Assembly (NCBI GenBank): GCA_001803315.1
Contig: MHBQ01000093.1
Coordinates: forward strand, 852-44,796
DNA length: 43,945 bases
From: Lentisphaerae bacterium RIFOXYC12_FULL_60_16
Lineage (GTDB): Bacteria; Verrucomicrobiota; Kiritimatiellia; UBA8416; YA12-FULL-60-10
Reading direction: 5' to 3'
Shown here: in pieces, positions 9,139 to 14,968 of the stretch
Position numbering within the stretch: the first letter of the stretch is position 1
Layout: each line of letters begins with the position of its first letter
Program-made: the position numbers and the translations under genes
Notes under the pieces: generated by a model
The model's database searches: none
Seen by the model: only the letters and a program-made list of their open reading frames with translations
What the model was told of the DNA's origin: nothing

Positions 9139-9230
9139 GGAGGGGTGGCAGAGCCCGGTTGAATGCGCATGACTCGAAATCATGTTTACCTTTACTGGTA
9201 ACGGGGGTTCAAATCCCTCCCCCTCCGCCA
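9139..9230 (+). tRNA. tRNA-Ser (anticodon CGA)
   Basis: A class II tRNA of 92 bases with an encoded CCA end. The acceptor stem GGAGGGG pairs with CCCCTCC near the 3' end, followed by discriminator G and CCA. The anticodon stem CATGA/TCATG encloses CTCGAAA, giving anticodon CGA, which reads UCG. A long variable arm (TTACC/GGTAA stem) is typical of serine tRNAs, and the T loop is TTCAAAT. The 3' third is copied again at 9253-9311 in an interrupted form. Confidence 0.95.
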
Positions 9231-9239
9231 ATTTATTCT

Positions 9240-9258
9240 CCCCCGACGTGGGCGGGGG
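9240..9258 (+). terminator. Hairpin after tRNA-Ser
   Basis: CCCCCG at 9240-9245 pairs with CGGGGG at 9253-9258 across a seven-base loop. It starts ten bases after the tRNA 3' end. There is no run of T after it, so it could be a processing or stability hairpin and not an intrinsic terminator. Its right arm is also part of the duplicated tRNA T-arm sequence. Confidence 0.35.
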
Positions 9259-9311
9259 TTCTCAGCCGAAGGCTGATCCGCCTCTGGCGGAAAATCCCTC
9301 CCCCTCCGCCA
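9253..9311 (+). repeat. Second copy of tRNA-Ser 3' end, split by a double hairpin
   Basis: CGGGGGTTC at 9253-9261 repeats tRNA bases 9202-9210, and the 20 bases 9292-9311 repeat tRNA bases 9211-9230 exactly, including CCA. The two parts are contiguous in the tRNA but separated here by 30 bases (9262-9291). That insert consists of two adjacent perfect hairpins: TCAGCC-GAA-GGCTGA (9262-9276) and TCCGCC-TCT-GGCGGA (9277-9291). The arrangement suggests duplication of the tRNA end followed by insertion of a palindromic element into the T-loop region. tRNA 3' ends are frequent integration sites, but no integrase is in the window. Confidence 0.8.
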
Positions 9312-9418
9312 TTCGACGCGTTCGCTTCGCTCACTTGCTCATGGCAGGCCACAGGGAACGGCTTCATACGTTAAGCGTGAGCCGGTATTCTTCATCTTGT
9401 TCTGGACAACCATGCCGC

Positions 9419-9703
9419 TCAGTTCTTCCCACCTCTACGCTTTTTTGAGCGGCCATATCCGGTTGCCTCTTCGCGAACGAATGCGCCCGACGAAACGGCT
9501 GTCTGCGGCATGGTGATGGCATATTCCATGGTCTGGGGACTGTCGGTTCGCTTGGATGCGTCGAGAATTTCCATACCCACTACGTTTCCGGACTTATCGT
9601 AATCGAGAATCACGCCGGGCTTGCTTTCGTCGCTCTCCTCGATCGGCCCGCTGTGCAGAAGAATCCTCAGAACGTCAACTTCCGGATCATAAGTTACTTT
9701 CAT
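9419..9703 (-). CDS. DUF2283 family protein, possible antitoxin
   Basis: A 94-residue protein beginning MKVTYDPEVDVLRILL and containing PGVILDYDKSGNVVGMEILDAS, the characteristic pattern of DUF2283. The C-terminal tail is basic and looks unstructured. It overlaps the end of the DUF4258 gene by four bases, so the two are translationally coupled. The two families often occur as neighbours and the pair resembles a type II toxin-antitoxin module; that role is inference here. The gene lies between tRNA-Ser and the cobamide operon in an accessory-looking stretch. Confidence 0.85.
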   Translation of the reverse strand: MKVTYDPEVDVLRILLHSGPIEESDESKPGVILDYDKSGNVVGMEILDASKRTDSPQTMEYAITMPQTAVSSGAFVREEATGYGRSKKRRGGKN

Positions 9704-9960
9704 GTCTTCCTCCAGTACTTCTCGATGCGGCTGGTCCGATACACCGTCACCACGACGGCGGGATCTATCGCGTCATCAATAATCAATCGCAACAGAAAGC
9801 ACGGCCCATCGCCGAAAGTCACTTTCGACTGGTACGCTTTTCTTGATCCGCGTTCTGGCACAATCTGCTGAGGTCGCCGGAGCACGCCATCCGCCAGCGC
9901 CCGCGGAATACCGCGTCGCGCCATTTCTTCCTCTGCATGCCGTGAATACCAGAACGTCAT
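9700..9960 (-). CDS. DUF4258 family protein, possible toxin
   Basis: An 86-residue protein with the DUF4258 pattern: WYSRHAEEEMARRGI at the N-terminus, a middle region around RPQQIVPERGSRKAYQ, and VVVTVYRTSRIEKYW at the C-terminus. GAGGAGG lies upstream of the start at 9960 with workable spacing; another ATG in a different frame sits just before it. It is the first gene of a two-gene unit and overlaps DUF2283 by four bases. Family function is not established; a toxin role is suggested by size and by the paired small gene. Confidence 0.85.
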   Translation of the reverse strand: MTFWYSRHAEEEMARRGIPRALADGVLRRPQQIVPERGSRKAYQSKVTFGDGPCFLLRLIIDDAIDPAVVVTVYRTSRIEKYWRKT

Positions 9961-10434
9961 CCATCAGCCTCCTCTTCGGCAACTTCATCGTTCCTGCCGC
10001 CCGCCCGGCGGGTACCGGTCAGTTCCTTTTGCGCATGCCAGACTGATGCTCGGCACAAGCCTCCAACACGGATGAATGTCAGGTCGGACGCCCTGCCAGC
10101 GGAATGTGATTTCTCGGTCATGAAGTTTCTTCCCTTTCAGTCCTCACACCCATATGGGCCGCAATTTCGTGCGCCGACATTCAACATTCATGGCGTTTGC
10201 TCACGGATAATAACTGCTCTCACGACGAGGAGAACATAACGGGTAACCGATCAAAATAACAAGGTCAGAGTCGAATGGCGCTTATCTTAGTGCCATTCAG
10301 GTCAGAGTCAGATGGCACCCCCACCTTTCATGCGACTGTTTCATCCGCATCGGGCACCGCTCCGGTACGGATTTTCCCTATATACGGATTTTCCCTCCTT
10401 GACAGATGCGACGGTCAAGCCCCGTAATGGCGTC
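9961..10434. other. Intergenic region with REP-like hairpins and short repeats
   Basis: No gene is supported before the btuF start. The stretch holds a GAATGGC/GCCATTC hairpin at 10273-10298, a truncated second copy of the same element beginning GGTCAGAGTC at 10300, and a 14-base direct repeat TACGGATTTTCCCT at 10366-10379 and 10383-10396. TTGACA at 10399-10404 could be a -35 box, but no good -10 follows. I looked for a cobalamin riboswitch, which would be expected ahead of btuFCD, and did not find its conserved boxes. Confidence 0.45.
10267..10298 (+). repeat. REP-like palindrome, copy 1
   Basis: AGAGTC is followed by GAATGGC (10273-10279) and its inverse GCCATTC (10292-10298); with one G-T and one C-G pair the stem reaches nine pairs around an eight-base loop. 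A second, decayed copy lies at 15121-15154 and shares the 13 bases CTTAGTGCCATTC exactly. A truncated copy starts at 10300. Such elements are typical of REP sequences mobilised by Y1 transposases. Confidence 0.55.
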
Positions 10435-11301
10435 ATGAACACGCATGCAGGTTTATCCATTTTCATGGCGTTGGCCTTCGGTCTGGCCGGTTGTTCCAAA
10501 GCGGCAAAACCGGGTAATGCCCCCACCGGTATCCGGATTGTCTCCCTGGCGCCCAGCCTCACCGAGATCGTCTGCGCCATCGCCGGCACCGAGGTCCTGG
10601 CCGGCCGGACCAGTGCCTGTGATTATCCCCCGGAAATCATCGACCGGGTCCCTATCGTGGGGGGATTCGGTGTGCCATCCATTGAAACCATCCTGTCCAT
10701 TGAACCCACCATCATTCTGGAAGCCGATCTCGCGGACCAGACCATGGCCAACCAGATGGAGGCGCTGGGCTTGCGCCGGGAACGGATTGCCTGCAAATCG
10801 GTACGGGATATCCCCCTCGCCATCGAAAAAGTCGGGACCCTGATCGGGTACGAACCCCAGGCGCTTGAACTGGCTGGCCGGATCCGTAGCGAACTCGCCG
10901 ACTGGCAGGCCCGGTCGGAAACCTCCGGCACCCATCCCCTGGTCTACGCCGAAATATGGAATGACCCGATCACCACGGCCGGAACCAACTCGTTCCTGTC
11001 GGACTTGATCAATCTGGCCGGCGGCAGGAATCTCGGCGATCAGGCCGGCAACGATTATTTCACCCTCGATCCGGAATGGATACTCAAGCAGAACCCCGAC
11101 ATCATCCTCTGTTTCTACATGTCCCGCGAAGGGACCGTTCGCGAAACCGTCCTGAAACGCCCCGGCTGGGCCCACGTCAAGGCGGTTACCAACGGCGCCG
11201 TATACGATGGTTTCGACAACAACATCATCCTGCGACCCGGTCCACGGGTTATCCAGGGTATCGAAGCCCTGCACCGGAGCATTTCCCAATCCGTCCCATG
11301 A
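10435..11301 (+). CDS. btuF: Cobalamin/cobamide ABC transporter substrate-binding lipoprotein
   Basis: A 288-residue periplasmic binding protein of the BtuF/FhuD class. From the chosen start (MNTHAGLS) it has a signal with lipobox LAGC near residue 20, so it is probably lipid-anchored. IRIVSLAPSLTEIVCAIAG and VGGFGVPSIETILSIEPTIIL are characteristic of the helical-backbone periplasmic binding fold. The open frame extends upstream to 10312, but that part does not look like protein. The start has a weak ribosome binding site. Its stop overlaps the start of the permease gene (ATGA at 11298), and cobU follows in the same operon, which supports a corrinoid over a siderophore ligand. Confidence 0.88.
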   Translation: MNTHAGLSIFMALAFGLAGCSKAAKPGNAPTGIRIVSLAPSLTEIVCAIAGTEVLAGRTSACDYPPEIIDRVPIVGGFGVPSIETILSIEPTIILEADLADQTMANQMEALGLRRERIACKSVRDIPLAIEKVGTLIGYEPQALELAGRIRSELADWQARSETSGTHPLVYAEIWNDPITTAGTNSFLSDLINLAGGRNLGDQAGNDYFTLDPEWILKQNPDIILCFYMSREGTVRETVLKRPGWAHVKAVTNGAVYDGFDNNIILRPGPRVIQGIEALHRSISQSVP

Positions 11302-12275
11302 ATAAATCCCGCGCGGTCCTGCTTGTCCTGATCCTCGGAACACCCCTGATGGCATGGCTCTGCCTGATCCTGGGTTCCTCCGGAATCGGCTTCCCGGATC
11401 TCGGCACCCCGATCGGGAAGGCCATTTTCAGCCTGCGCGCCAACCGGGTGGCCGGCGGATTTATCGTGGGCGCCGCCCTCTCCTGCGCCGGCGTCGTGTT
11501 CCAGGCTCTCCTGCGCAACCCGCTGGCCGAACCCTATATTCTCGGGGTCAGCAGCGGCGCCGGACTCGGGGCCGCCATTGCCATCCTCACCGGGTTGAGC
11601 GCCGCCGGCCTGGCCTGGCTGCCGGGCCTCGCATTTGTCGGCGCCATCATCACCCTCACCCTCGTCTTCACCATTGCCCACGACGGCGGATCCCCTTCGG
11701 TCTACAGCCTGATCCTCAGCGGCGTGATTGTCAGTTCGGTCTGCTCCAGCATCCTGATGTTCATGGTGGCCACCGCACCGGTTGAGGGTTTGCACAGCGT
11801 GGTGTGGTGGATGCTCGGCGACCTCCAACCCGCCGGTCTCCCCATGCTCCTGACCTGCGGGTCGTTCATGCTGGCAGGCGCCCTCGCCCTCTGGTCCCTC
11901 AGCCCGGAACTCAATGCCATGACCCTGGGCACCGAAACCGCGCATCATCTGGGCATCCGCACCGGCCTGATCATGGGGATCGGACTTGTCCTGGCCACGA
12001 TGATCACCGCCGCATCGGTCGGCCTGGCCGGGCTGATCGGCTTTGTCGGCCTGATCATCCCGCACGTGATCCGGGCACTGGTGGGTCCCGACCATCGCCG
12101 CCTGATTCCCGCAGCCGCCCTCGGAGGAGGCACATTCCTGATGCTGTGTGATGCGCTTGCCCGGACCCTCCTGGCGCCGCGCGAGATCCCGGTCGGTGTC
12201 ATCACCGCCATTTTCGGAGGACCATTCTTCCTGTTGATCCTGCGCGCCAAACGCCGGCGGGGATGGATGGCATGA
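11298..12275 (+). CDS. btuC: Cobalamin/cobamide ABC transporter permease
   Basis: A 325-residue inner-membrane protein of the FecCD/BtuC family with about ten hydrophobic segments. RNPLAEPYILGVSSGAGLGA and GLIGFVGLIIPHVIRALVG are the conserved family motifs; the latter precedes the cytoplasmic loop that contacts the ATPase. The start overlaps the btuF stop in ATGA, and the stop overlaps the start of the ATPase gene in the same manner. It forms the membrane channel for the substrate delivered by BtuF. Vitamin B12 specificity is inferred from cobU downstream; sequence alone cannot separate it from a heme or siderophore permease. Confidence 0.92.
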   Translation: MNKSRAVLLVLILGTPLMAWLCLILGSSGIGFPDLGTPIGKAIFSLRANRVAGGFIVGAALSCAGVVFQALLRNPLAEPYILGVSSGAGLGAAIAILTGLSAAGLAWLPGLAFVGAIITLTLVFTIAHDGGSPSVYSLILSGVIVSSVCSSILMFMVATAPVEGLHSVVWWMLGDLQPAGLPMLLTCGSFMLAGALALWSLSPELNAMTLGTETAHHLGIRTGLIMGIGLVLATMITAASVGLAGLIGFVGLIIPHVIRALVGPDHRRLIPAAALGGGTFLMLCDALARTLLAPREIPVGVITAIFGGPFFLLILRAKRRRGWMA

Positions 12276-13549
12276 GCGCCCCGGCCCTCACGTTCAACGC
12301 CGTCACGGCCGGTTACCGGAAAACCCCCATTCTCCAGGATGTTTCGTTCACCATTCCCGAAGGCGAAATCGCCTCCATCATCGGGCCCAATGGCGCCGGG
12401 AAAACCACGCTCCTGCGCGTCATCACCGGCCTGGTCAAACCGATCCGGGGAACGATTTCCCTTTTCGGGCACCCGCTGGAAAACCTCCGGGCCGCGGAAC
12501 GCGCCCGGCTGGTCGGCGTGGTGCCGCAAAGCATGGAAACCCCCATGGCGTTCACGGTTGAAGAAGTGGTCATGACCGGCATGGTCCGCACCGCCAACCG
12601 CTTCCACCCCCCCACCGCCGAAGACCGCGCCCGGGTGGAACGCGCCATGGCGTATACGGACGTGTCGGACCTCCGGTTCCGGGTATATGCCGAACTCAGC
12701 GCCGGTGAAAAACAGCGGGTCGTGATCGCCATGGTCGTGGCCCAGGACCCCCGCCTGGTACTCATGGATGAAGCCACGTCGCACCTGGACATCAACCATC
12801 GCCTTGAAATCATGACCCTGGTGGAACGTATCAACCGTGACCACGGCGCCACGGTGCTGATGATCAGCCATGACCTCAACCTGTCCGCCGAATACTGCCG
12901 CCGCCTGATCCTGCTCGACCATGGCCGGATCGTCGCCGACGGCGCCCCGCAGACCGTGTTGACCGAGCAGCAGCTCAAGGCCGTCTACCATTGCGATGTC
13001 AACGTGCAGACCGCCGTGGGAACCGGATCCATCACCGTCACCCCCGCCCGGCGCTGGATGCCGGACCGTTCCGGGAGCGGCATCCGGATTCACGTGGTGG
13101 GCGGCGGCGGCAGCGCTGCCGAAATCATGCGCCAACTCAACCTGTGCGAATACACCGTCACCGCCGGTGCGCTGAATGCCGGCGACACGGATACCGATCT
13201 TGCCACGGCATTGGGACTTGAGGTTGCCGTTGAGAAACCCTTTTCGCCCATCACGCCGGCCACGCTCGATGCAACCCGGAAACTGGTAACCCTGGCCGAT
13301 GCCGTCGTGGTGGCCGGCCTTCCCTTCGGCCCCGGCAATGTCGCCAACCTCGTATTGGTCCAGGAAACCCTCACTGCGGGGAAACCGGTCTTTCTCATGC
13401 GCGGGATTGAGACCCGCGATTTCACGCCGGATCATTCCGCCACCCGGCTGGCGGAATCCCTCCGCACCTCCGGTGCCCGGGAATGGGATACGCCCGCCGA
13501 CCTGCTGCCGCTTCTGCCAAGCCGTGAATGCAAACGGACAATGAATTGA
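12272..13549 (+). CDS. btuD: Cobalamin ABC transporter ATPase with C-terminal extension domain
   Basis: A 425-residue protein. Residues 1 to about 255 are a normal ABC ATPase: Walker A GPNGAGKT at 38-45, signature LSAGEKQR near 142-149, Walker B LVLMDEAT and the switch histidine in MISHDLN. After this comes an extra 170 residues starting HVVGGGGSAAEIMRQL and containing ADAVVVAGLPFGPGNVAN, which reads like a Rossmann-type nucleotide or corrinoid-binding fold. Typical BtuD is about 250 residues. The start at 12272 overlaps the permease stop (ATGA); an alternative ATG at 12263 is possible. The extension may couple uptake to cobamide processing, but that is only suggested by the operon. Confidence 0.88.
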   Translation: MSAPALTFNAVTAGYRKTPILQDVSFTIPEGEIASIIGPNGAGKTTLLRVITGLVKPIRGTISLFGHPLENLRAAERARLVGVVPQSMETPMAFTVEEVVMTGMVRTANRFHPPTAEDRARVERAMAYTDVSDLRFRVYAELSAGEKQRVVIAMVVAQDPRLVLMDEATSHLDINHRLEIMTLVERINRDHGATVLMISHDLNLSAEYCRRLILLDHGRIVADGAPQTVLTEQQLKAVYHCDVNVQTAVGTGSITVTPARRWMPDRSGSGIRIHVVGGGGSAAEIMRQLNLCEYTVTAGALNAGDTDTDLATALGLEVAVEKPFSPITPATLDATRKLVTLADAVVVAGLPFGPGNVANLVLVQETLTAGKPVFLMRGIETRDFTPDHSATRLAESLRTSGAREWDTPADLLPLLPSRECKRTMN

Positions 13550-13556
13550 GGAACCC

Positions 13557-14102
13557 ATGCCCAAACACCATGTACTCCTGGTGACCGGCGGTGCCCGCAG
13601 CGGCAAGAGCCGGTTCGCCCTGGCCCGCGCCCTGACCTATAAACGCCGTGTTTTCCTGGCAACCGCCATTGCCTTCGATGATGAGATGAAGGACCGGATC
13701 GCCCGCCACCGTGATGAACGCCGCGACACCTTCACCACGGTTGAAGAACCGCTCCGCGTGGCCGATGCCATCCGGGGCATCACCCAACCCTGTGACGTGG
13801 TCCTCCTCGATTGCCTGACCGTATGGCTGGGCAACCTGATGCATCATCACGGGACAAACAACGAAAGCTACCCGGAAACCGCGGCCCTGCTTGATCTGCT
13901 CAACGCGCCTCCCTGCAACCTGATCCTCGTCACCAACGAAGTCGGCATGGGAATTGTCCCCGAGAACCCGATGGCCCGGGCATTCCGGGACCTCGCCGGT
14001 ACCGTGAACCGCCAGGTAGCCGAACGCGCCGACGAAGTCGTCCTCGTCACCTGCGGACTCCCCCTCACGATCAAGGACAAGGCGGAGATCCGATCCAGCT
14101 GA
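13557..14102 (+). CDS. cobU: Adenosylcobinamide kinase/guanylyltransferase
   Basis: A 181-residue cytosolic enzyme that phosphorylates adenosylcobinamide and then transfers GMP to it, preparing it for attachment of the lower ligand. P-loop GGARSGKS is at residues 11-18, followed by the CobU block DDEMKDRIARHRDER that includes the guanylylated histidine, and TNEVGMGIVPENPMARAFRD later. Length matches the family. GAGG lies upstream of ATG 13557, seven bases after the btuD stop. Its place behind btuFCD shows that the operon takes up and salvages cobinamide or other corrinoids. cobS, cobT and cobC are not in the window. Confidence 0.94.
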   Translation: MPKHHVLLVTGGARSGKSRFALARALTYKRRVFLATAIAFDDEMKDRIARHRDERRDTFTTVEEPLRVADAIRGITQPCDVVLLDCLTVWLGNLMHHHGTNNESYPETAALLDLLNAPPCNLILVTNEVGMGIVPENPMARAFRDLAGTVNRQVAERADEVVLVTCGLPLTIKDKAEIRSS

Positions 14103-14481: not shown

Positions 14482-14757
14482 ATGAATTTTGATTGGGATC
14501 CACGAAAGGCTGCCAGCAATGTGCGGAAGCACGGCGTTAATTTTCACGAAGCGGCAATGATCTTTGCCGATCCGTTGTCCATTACCGTGCATGATCCTGA
14601 CCATTCGGTGACTGAGCACCGATTCATAACCGTCGGAATGGACCCGGCGAGGCGGGTGTTGATTGTCTCTCACGCCGATCGTGGTGACACGATTCGACTC
14701 ATCAGCGCAAGGAAGACAACGCAACAGGAGCGAAGATATTATGAAGAAGGCAAGTAA
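14482..14757 (+). CDS. brnT: BrnT family ribonuclease toxin
   Basis: A 91-residue protein of the BrnT (DUF497) family. The N-terminus MNFDWDPRKAASNVRKHGVN followed by FHEAAMIFADP is the family hallmark, and the C-terminal part IRLISARKTTQQERRYYEEG carries the conserved RxISAR motif and catalytic-side basic residues. BrnT toxins adopt a RelE-like fold and cleave RNA; the toxin is neutralised by the adjacent antitoxin. No Shine-Dalgarno is seen, and the promoter lies so close that translation may be leaderless. The antitoxin frame begins 17 bases before the toxin stop. Confidence 0.9.
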   Translation: MNFDWDPRKAASNVRKHGVNFHEAAMIFADPLSITVHDPDHSVTEHRFITVGMDPARRVLIVSHADRGDTIRLISARKTTQQERRYYEEGK

Positions 14758-14968
14758 TACTGCAATGGTTGATGATCTGCGTCCTGAGTATGACCTCTCC
14801 AGACTCAAGGGTGTGCGAGGTAAGTATGCGAAGCGCTTTCAGTCAGGCACCAATCTGGTCCGGCTTTCACCAGAGGTGGCGCGTTTCTTCCACGATGAAC
14901 ATGCCGTTAATTCAGCTCTGAAATCATTGATCGACATTGCCCAAGCGCAACTGCACCACGCCCACTGA
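14741..14968 (+). CDS. BrnA-type antitoxin
   Basis: A 75-residue protein that follows brnT with a 17-base overlap. DDLRPEYDLSRLKGVRGKY followed by LSPEVARFFHDEHAVNSALKSLI matches the antitoxins usually paired with BrnT: a toxin-contacting N-terminal segment and a C-terminal ribbon-helix-helix-like part that would bind the promoter. The start at 14741 is chosen from the match to family length; the frame is open upstream to 14663 inside brnT. Such antitoxins repress their own operon together with the toxin. Family naming varies, so no symbol is given. Confidence 0.82.
   Translation: MKKASNTAMVDDLRPEYDLSRLKGVRGKYAKRFQSGTNLVRLSPEVARFFHDEHAVNSALKSLIDIAQAQLHHAH

Follow-up and report, generated by a model that had tools for sequence, protein, structure and literature searches.

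A double-hairpin insertion at a tRNA-Ser gene of a Kiritimatiellia genome and its recurrence in the T loop of partial tRNA copies

The tRNA-Ser locus

The stretch of DNA analysed here (the window, 43,945 nucleotides from Lentisphaerae bacterium RIFOXYC12_FULL_60_16) contains an intact tRNA-Ser(CGA) gene and, just downstream, a broken second copy of its 3' end. The last 29 bases of the tRNA are repeated (9253-9261 plus 9292-9311), beginning 22 bases past the gene, and 30 bases (9262-9291), which form two perfect hairpins with 6-bp stems and 3-nt loops, interrupt the repeat just behind the T-loop TTC. A third hairpin, CCCCCG-ACGTGGG-CGGGGG at 9240-9258, has its left arm inside the spacer between the two copies, and its right arm is made of bases of the duplicated T-stem strand. 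An earlier reading made from the letters of the window (the sequence-only reading) had described the duplicated end, the double hairpin and the third hairpin, and every detail is borne out. With up to three mismatches allowed, the 30-mer occurs once in the window, and shuffled sequences give an expectation of 0. The features of the locus and the neighbouring gene pair are:

9139..9230, + strand: intact tRNA-Ser(CGA), encoded CCA included (ARAGORN; Rfam tRNA, 56 bits)
9211..9291, + strand: inferred insertion of 81 bp, placed behind GGTTC in the T loop, removal of which restores a 132-nt match to uninterrupted relatives; its parts are a new tRNA 3' half (20), the spacer (22), a T-stem strand with TTC (9) and the double hairpin (30)
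9231..9252, + strand: spacer from the intact tRNA to the second copy, missing from uninterrupted loci
9253..9261, + strand: second T-stem 5' strand plus TTC, CGGGGGTTC
9262..9276, + strand: hairpin 1, TCAGCC-GAA-GGCTGA, with covariation in 73 aligned units
9277..9291, + strand: hairpin 2, TCCGCC-TCT-GGCGGA, with covariation in 73 aligned units
9292..9311, + strand: displaced tRNA-Ser 3' end AAATCCCTCCCCCTCCGCCA, presumably the original one; in relatives it belongs, with the tail, to the intact tRNA
9312..9351, + strand: conserved tail TTCGACGCGTTCGC...CATGGCAGGCCA, truncated here, which follows tRNA-Ser genes in relatives
9419-9703, - strand: DUF2283 gene, first of a TA-like pair
9700-9960, - strand: DUF4258 gene, second of the TA-like pair

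The empty site in relatives

When positions 9139-9210 are joined directly to 9292-9351, the resulting 132 bases match the intact tRNA-Ser(CGA) gene and tail of one relative (locus L257) at 98.5% identity without a gap. To L256 and L255 the same join is 94.7% and 84.8% identical, the three comparisons each covering about 132 nt and containing 0-2 gaps, and 9292-9351 also matches a tRNA-Ser end and its tail, uninterrupted, in other families of the class. An uninterrupted version of the locus, which the sequence-only reading had envisaged among relatives, is therefore at hand. Because deletion of 9211-9291 restores the relatives' intact tRNA-Ser and tail, the 81 bp can be said to have been added as an insertion. 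The exact breakpoint is ambiguous across a 20-bp direct repeat, 9231-9311 being equivalent to 9211-9291; since both 3' halves are identical, it may sit anywhere in the repeat, up to the tRNA 3' end. Judged by these alignments, 81 bp were inserted and the tRNA was regenerated in the process. An integrase island is not supported, as the spacer measures 22 bp and the contig has no integrase.

The earlier proposal had called for two events, duplication of a tRNA end and insertion of a palindrome. Separate events are unnecessary, because a single 81-bp insertion suffices and the spacer is missing from uninterrupted loci; the regenerated tRNA half and the hairpins are missing there as well. A tandem duplication of the tRNA end, with hairpins inserted later, is disfavoured both by the spacer, which is foreign to the uninterrupted locus, and by the native tail, which follows the last copy. 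The empty site is demonstrated for the window copy alone, a copy without a GIY-YIG gene.

The 98.5% identity is found between families, which suggests either transfer or strong constraint. The tail itself (TTCGACGCGTTCGC...CATGGCAGGCC; 9312-9351, loci L235-L260) stands after tRNA-Ser genes with several anticodons in different families of the class and, in one case (L260), after an apparent tmRNA end. In relatives, a GIY-YIG gene often begins about 60-190 bp past this tail.

Recurrence in the host genome and in other phyla

A double-hairpin pattern free of flanking sequence occurs in exactly two places in the host genome (4.09 Mb, 188 contigs; 0 for the reversed control), both of them at TTC^AAA in the T loop of a partial tRNA 3' end. 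The second copy, on contig C65, was found by searching the host genome with the window segment. There, the 3' end of a tRNA-Met gene is repeated 49 bases past the intact gene and interrupted at the identical T-loop point, in this case by TCTGCC-GGA-GGCAGA plus TCCGCC-TCT-GGCGGA.

A scan of the sequence collection for GGTTC, two hairpins and RAATCC returned 93 further DNA stretches from several phyla, among them Patescibacteria, Ignavibacteria/Bacteroidota, Acidobacteriota, Omnitrophota, Margulisbacteria, Kiritimatiellae and others; the unit is also present in one record titled Nanoarchaeota, where mis-binning is possible. Since this pattern fixed both the insertion point and the GCC/GGC cores, the scan shows recurrence and not a preference for position, which was free to vary only in the own-genome and relaxed searches. 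With relaxed flanks, most matches still read TTC once the hairpin-rich genome G393 is set aside. The hairpin insert thus recurs, with a second copy in the host genome and more than 100 elsewhere, and the earlier suggestion of a mobile-like element is likewise supported. Nearly all of the loci come from metagenome assemblies; chance or assembly error is ruled out by the junction being shared among independent genomes.

The 115 units affect 14 tRNA isotypes. An intact tRNA lies no more than 600 bp away in 92 of them, and the other 23 have none within that distance. Copies of a tRNA 3' part stand behind the intact gene in 76 units (median distance 49.5 nt, range 2-507), and copies of a 5' part stand ahead of it in 16 (median 277.5 nt). 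Some loci (L079, L088, L095 and L141) are tandem arrays, in which the series 3' half, spacer, GGTTC, hairpins is repeated and a final 3' half closes the array. Beyond the ends of the ORF-less arrays the flanking DNA differs, as it should if the original 3' half is the one in final position.

Viral contigs gave 0 matches to the unit, and a viral origin was rejected on these grounds. Phages yielded only weak GIY-YIG matches, plasmids matched the tRNA part alone, and the unit corresponds to no Rfam family.

Structure of the double hairpin

Across 73 aligned units, the covariation score of the hairpin arms is 0.363 against 0.111 for shuffled arms, a value reached by none of 500 shuffles. The cells counted are the three outer pairs of each hairpin, which were unconstrained by the search pattern; 434 of the 438 informative ones are Watson-Crick, 1 is G-U and 3 are unpaired. 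The near-absence of G-U pairs suggests that the thing conserved is a DNA palindrome. The shape of the hairpins seems to matter more than their letters, because L077 and L232 keep two hairpins with 3-base loops despite shorter and quite different stems. Folding of the single strand is stable (z = -3.06, DNA parameters); folded as RNA, the locus as a whole does not stand out (z = -1.59).

Variants of the arrangement were also seen. Broken tRNA copies at L226, L080, L110, L058 and L100 have hairpins in other arms, either within the anticodon loop (TCTC^GAAAA), within the D loop or substituting for the anticodon arm. At L112 and L127, T-arm-like sites upstream of a GIY-YIG ORF carry at least three adjacent hairpins. 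Genomes G372/G393 and G369 contain many double hairpins scattered outside tRNAs, typically TTTTCCGCCnnnGGCGGATCCGCCnnnGGCGGAAAA and often flanked by short inverted repeats.

Linked GIY-YIG genes

At 24 of the 93 loci, a small GIY-YIG ORF lies within 1.5 kb of the unit, on the same strand in every case and mostly in the interval that separates the hairpin-plugged copy from the intact tRNA. A stricter motif test finds 18 GIY-YIG ORFs in 106.5 kb near units, as compared with 1 in 560 kb further off. The linked bacterial ORFs are about 80-90 aa long, with little beyond the catalytic domain, and their products are matched by PF01541; in alignment A2, residues Y4, Y15, G17, R25 and H29 are invariant and E61 is conserved in at least 90%. 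The linked protein is modelled with confidence (mean pLDDT 94.4), and the best matches in a fold search, all with weak E-values, include UPF0213, I-TevI and UvrC GIY-YIG domains. The enzyme gene linked to the copies is this small endonuclease, in place of the integrase that had been expected near them.

Many non-UvrC GIY-YIG genes in seven genomes, the host included, have a tRNA on the same strand within about 220 bp. The host genome's own two small GIY-YIG genes begin 46 and 138 bp after tRNA genes; these sites, at tRNA-Arg and tRNA-Asp, are without hairpins. At L225, GIY-YIG genes stand in tandem with tRNA 3' halves between them and no hairpins, which makes this locus a hairpin-free counterpart of such arrays. 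Roughly three in four units lack a nearby GIY-YIG ORF. On the window's contig, PF01541 has no match and so no GIY-YIG remnant was found, and the tRNA-Met locus on C65 has no GIY-YIG gene.

Interpretation and alternatives

In the reading we prefer, to which we assign a probability of about 0.6, the window holds an ORF-less derivative of a tRNA-targeting, homing-type GIY-YIG element, and the double hairpin plugs a displaced cut site. Such an element would enter the tRNA T loop (TTC^RAA) and supply its own tRNA half, so that a complete tRNA is restored; its full-length relatives would be those in which a small GIY-YIG gene separates the broken copy from the intact tRNA, and the window copy would descend from an ORF-bearing copy of this kind. 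The GIY-YIG enzyme would cut the T loop (GTTC^RAATC) of an uninvaded tRNA gene, and the break would be repaired from an element-bearing tRNA locus by way of the homology in the tRNA halves. This would leave an intact tRNA followed by the element and, behind it, the displaced tRNA end of the host. The double hairpin would mark the join and plug the cut site in the displaced copy, which would no longer be a target and could not be used as a tRNA. Tandem arrays might arise from repeated rounds or from unequal crossing-over.

Homing appears the best reading because of the GIY-YIG linkage and because a measured cleavage motif falls at the insertion point. The GIY-YIG homing endonuclease SegB of phage T6 cleaves within tRNA genes with the motif RAWTSGAAC, and the complement of this motif, GTTCSAWTY, coincides with the T-loop sequence where the insertion lies (PMC13096335). 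SegB is a phage enzyme, and the bacterial proteins would be predicted to cut there as well. Since that motif was measured independently, the homing idea is directly testable. Certain points count against it: the intact tRNA keeps the supposed cut site, which leaves self-protection without an explanation, the window and tRNA-Met loci have no GIY-YIG gene, and some copies have their hairpins in the anticodon or D loop.

The double hairpins scattered outside tRNAs, dozens of them in G372/G393 with flanks such as GGATTT...AAATCC, would be easier to understand if a Y1 transposase of the REP/RAYT kind spread palindromes that are tolerated only in non-functional tRNA-end duplicates of other origin, with the GIY-YIG genes as tRNA-favouring bystanders. 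Y1_Tnp genes are indeed present in all nine genomes tested, and the host genome has five such genes. We nevertheless consider this account unlikely: both hairpin copies of the host genome lie at the same T-loop point and none lies elsewhere, the ten Y1_Tnp loci examined have no such hairpin nearby, no conserved REP-type tetranucleotide was seen, and the spacer, the regenerated tRNA half and the hairpins either arrived together or, at the least, are jointly absent from uninterrupted relatives. A function in RNA, in which the hairpin-bearing T arm would serve as a terminator, as a 3' stabiliser or decoy, or to regulate the neighbouring tRNA or endonuclease mRNA, would suit the stable single-strand fold (in DNA parameters) and the conserved two-hairpin shape. 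Under selection for RNA structure, however, a single G-U among the informative stem cells is unusual; units stand both before and after tRNAs, no T-run is present past the hairpins, and neither the Rfam search nor the whole-locus RNA fold gives any sign of such a device, which is decidedly improbable.

Islands that carry an integrase classically land in tRNA genes, and integrase att sites often reach the tRNA 3' end. The duplicated stretch extends to that end here too, as it would if the second copy were the att remnant of a former island that was later struck by a palindromic mini-element. However, just 22 bp separate the repeated ends at this locus, and elsewhere the distance does not exceed about 500 bp (76 units, 2-507 bp); no island DNA lies between them, and the 16 units that duplicate a tRNA 5' part do not fit. 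Eight PF00589 (Phage_integrase) genes are present in the host genome, none of them on the window contig (C93) or on C65, and one insertion accounts for the uninterrupted relatives. The integrase-mediated island of the sequence-only reading is given up for these reasons, and we regard an integrase scar as extremely improbable.

A broader proposal is held tentatively, at somewhat short of even odds: the units may represent widespread, undescribed bacterial parasites of tRNA genes, comprising minimal homing elements of the GIY-YIG type as well as ORF-less derivatives of them, in which the conserved two-hairpin DNA structure is itself a working part. If so, the parasites would invade through the T loop, reconstitute the tRNA and leave behind two-hairpin DNA (a three-way junction together with the T stem), which could serve, for example, to block cutting as a plug or to offer the nuclease branched DNA as its substrate. 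In several poorly cultured phyla, the tRNA landing site appears to be used by elements that are much smaller than islands and belong with another class of enzyme. This offers a natural and testable reason why these genomes contain partial copies of tRNAs and GIY-YIG genes linked to tRNA genes, and it connects a phage enzyme shown to cut tRNA genes with possible bacterial counterparts. It also calls for caution, as tRNA neighbourhoods in these groups hold plugged pseudo-copies.

Comparison with known systems

Free-standing, tRNA-linked GIY-YIG homing endonucleases are already known in phages. The SegB-type enzymes of T-even phages are like the bacterial ORFs in belonging to the GIY-YIG superfamily and in having their genes beside tRNA genes, and they promote segmental amplification of tRNA loci; these systems are phage-borne, and the excerpted accounts describe no hairpin plug or regenerated tRNA half (PMC13096335, PMC2988022). 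By sequence, the nearest solved relative of the linked proteins is the small GIY-YIG protein of the UPF0213/URI group (PDB 1zg2), which also comes first in the fold search, the matches being weak; the descriptions of this group that were consulted do not present its members as mobile or tRNA-linked.

Among hairpin elements, REP/REPIN sequences with their RAYT (Y1) enzymes are like the unit in being short paired hairpins in many copies with no ORF of their own. The unit differs from them in its T-loop target, in the regenerated tRNA half and in the lack of hairpins near the Y1_Tnp loci examined. The double-hairpin elements of mitochondrial DNA, known as DHEs in fungi and RHEs in sponges, also consist of two adjacent small hairpins that are repeated and mobile-like. 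They are organellar, and we know of no tie between them and the tRNA T loop or a GIY-YIG gene. Integrative elements with tRNA att sites likewise restore the tRNA with insert-borne sequence and leave a spare 3' end; the unit is unlike them in having no tyrosine recombinase, in copies 2-507 bp apart, in the 5'-copy forms and in the hairpin plug. As to a group I intron, the insert measures 30 or 81 bp and no intron family is among the Rfam matches. The literature, covered in part, yielded no bacterial element with both a regenerated tRNA half and a double-hairpin plug, which is weak evidence of novelty.

Surrounding genes

The accessory TA-like pair noted by the sequence-only reading is present (DUF2283 and DUF4258, 9419-9960), while its link to the insertion consists in proximity alone. 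The region 10312-14102 is likely a cobalamin uptake and salvage cluster; its genes encode a periplasmic binding protein, a FecCD permease and a CobU-type protein, with an intervening ORF at 12263-13549. A BrnT-type toxin gene (PF04365) lies within 14482-14968 and is followed by an overlapping 101-aa ORF, which has no Pfam match and is possibly the antitoxin of the BrnT-type toxin.
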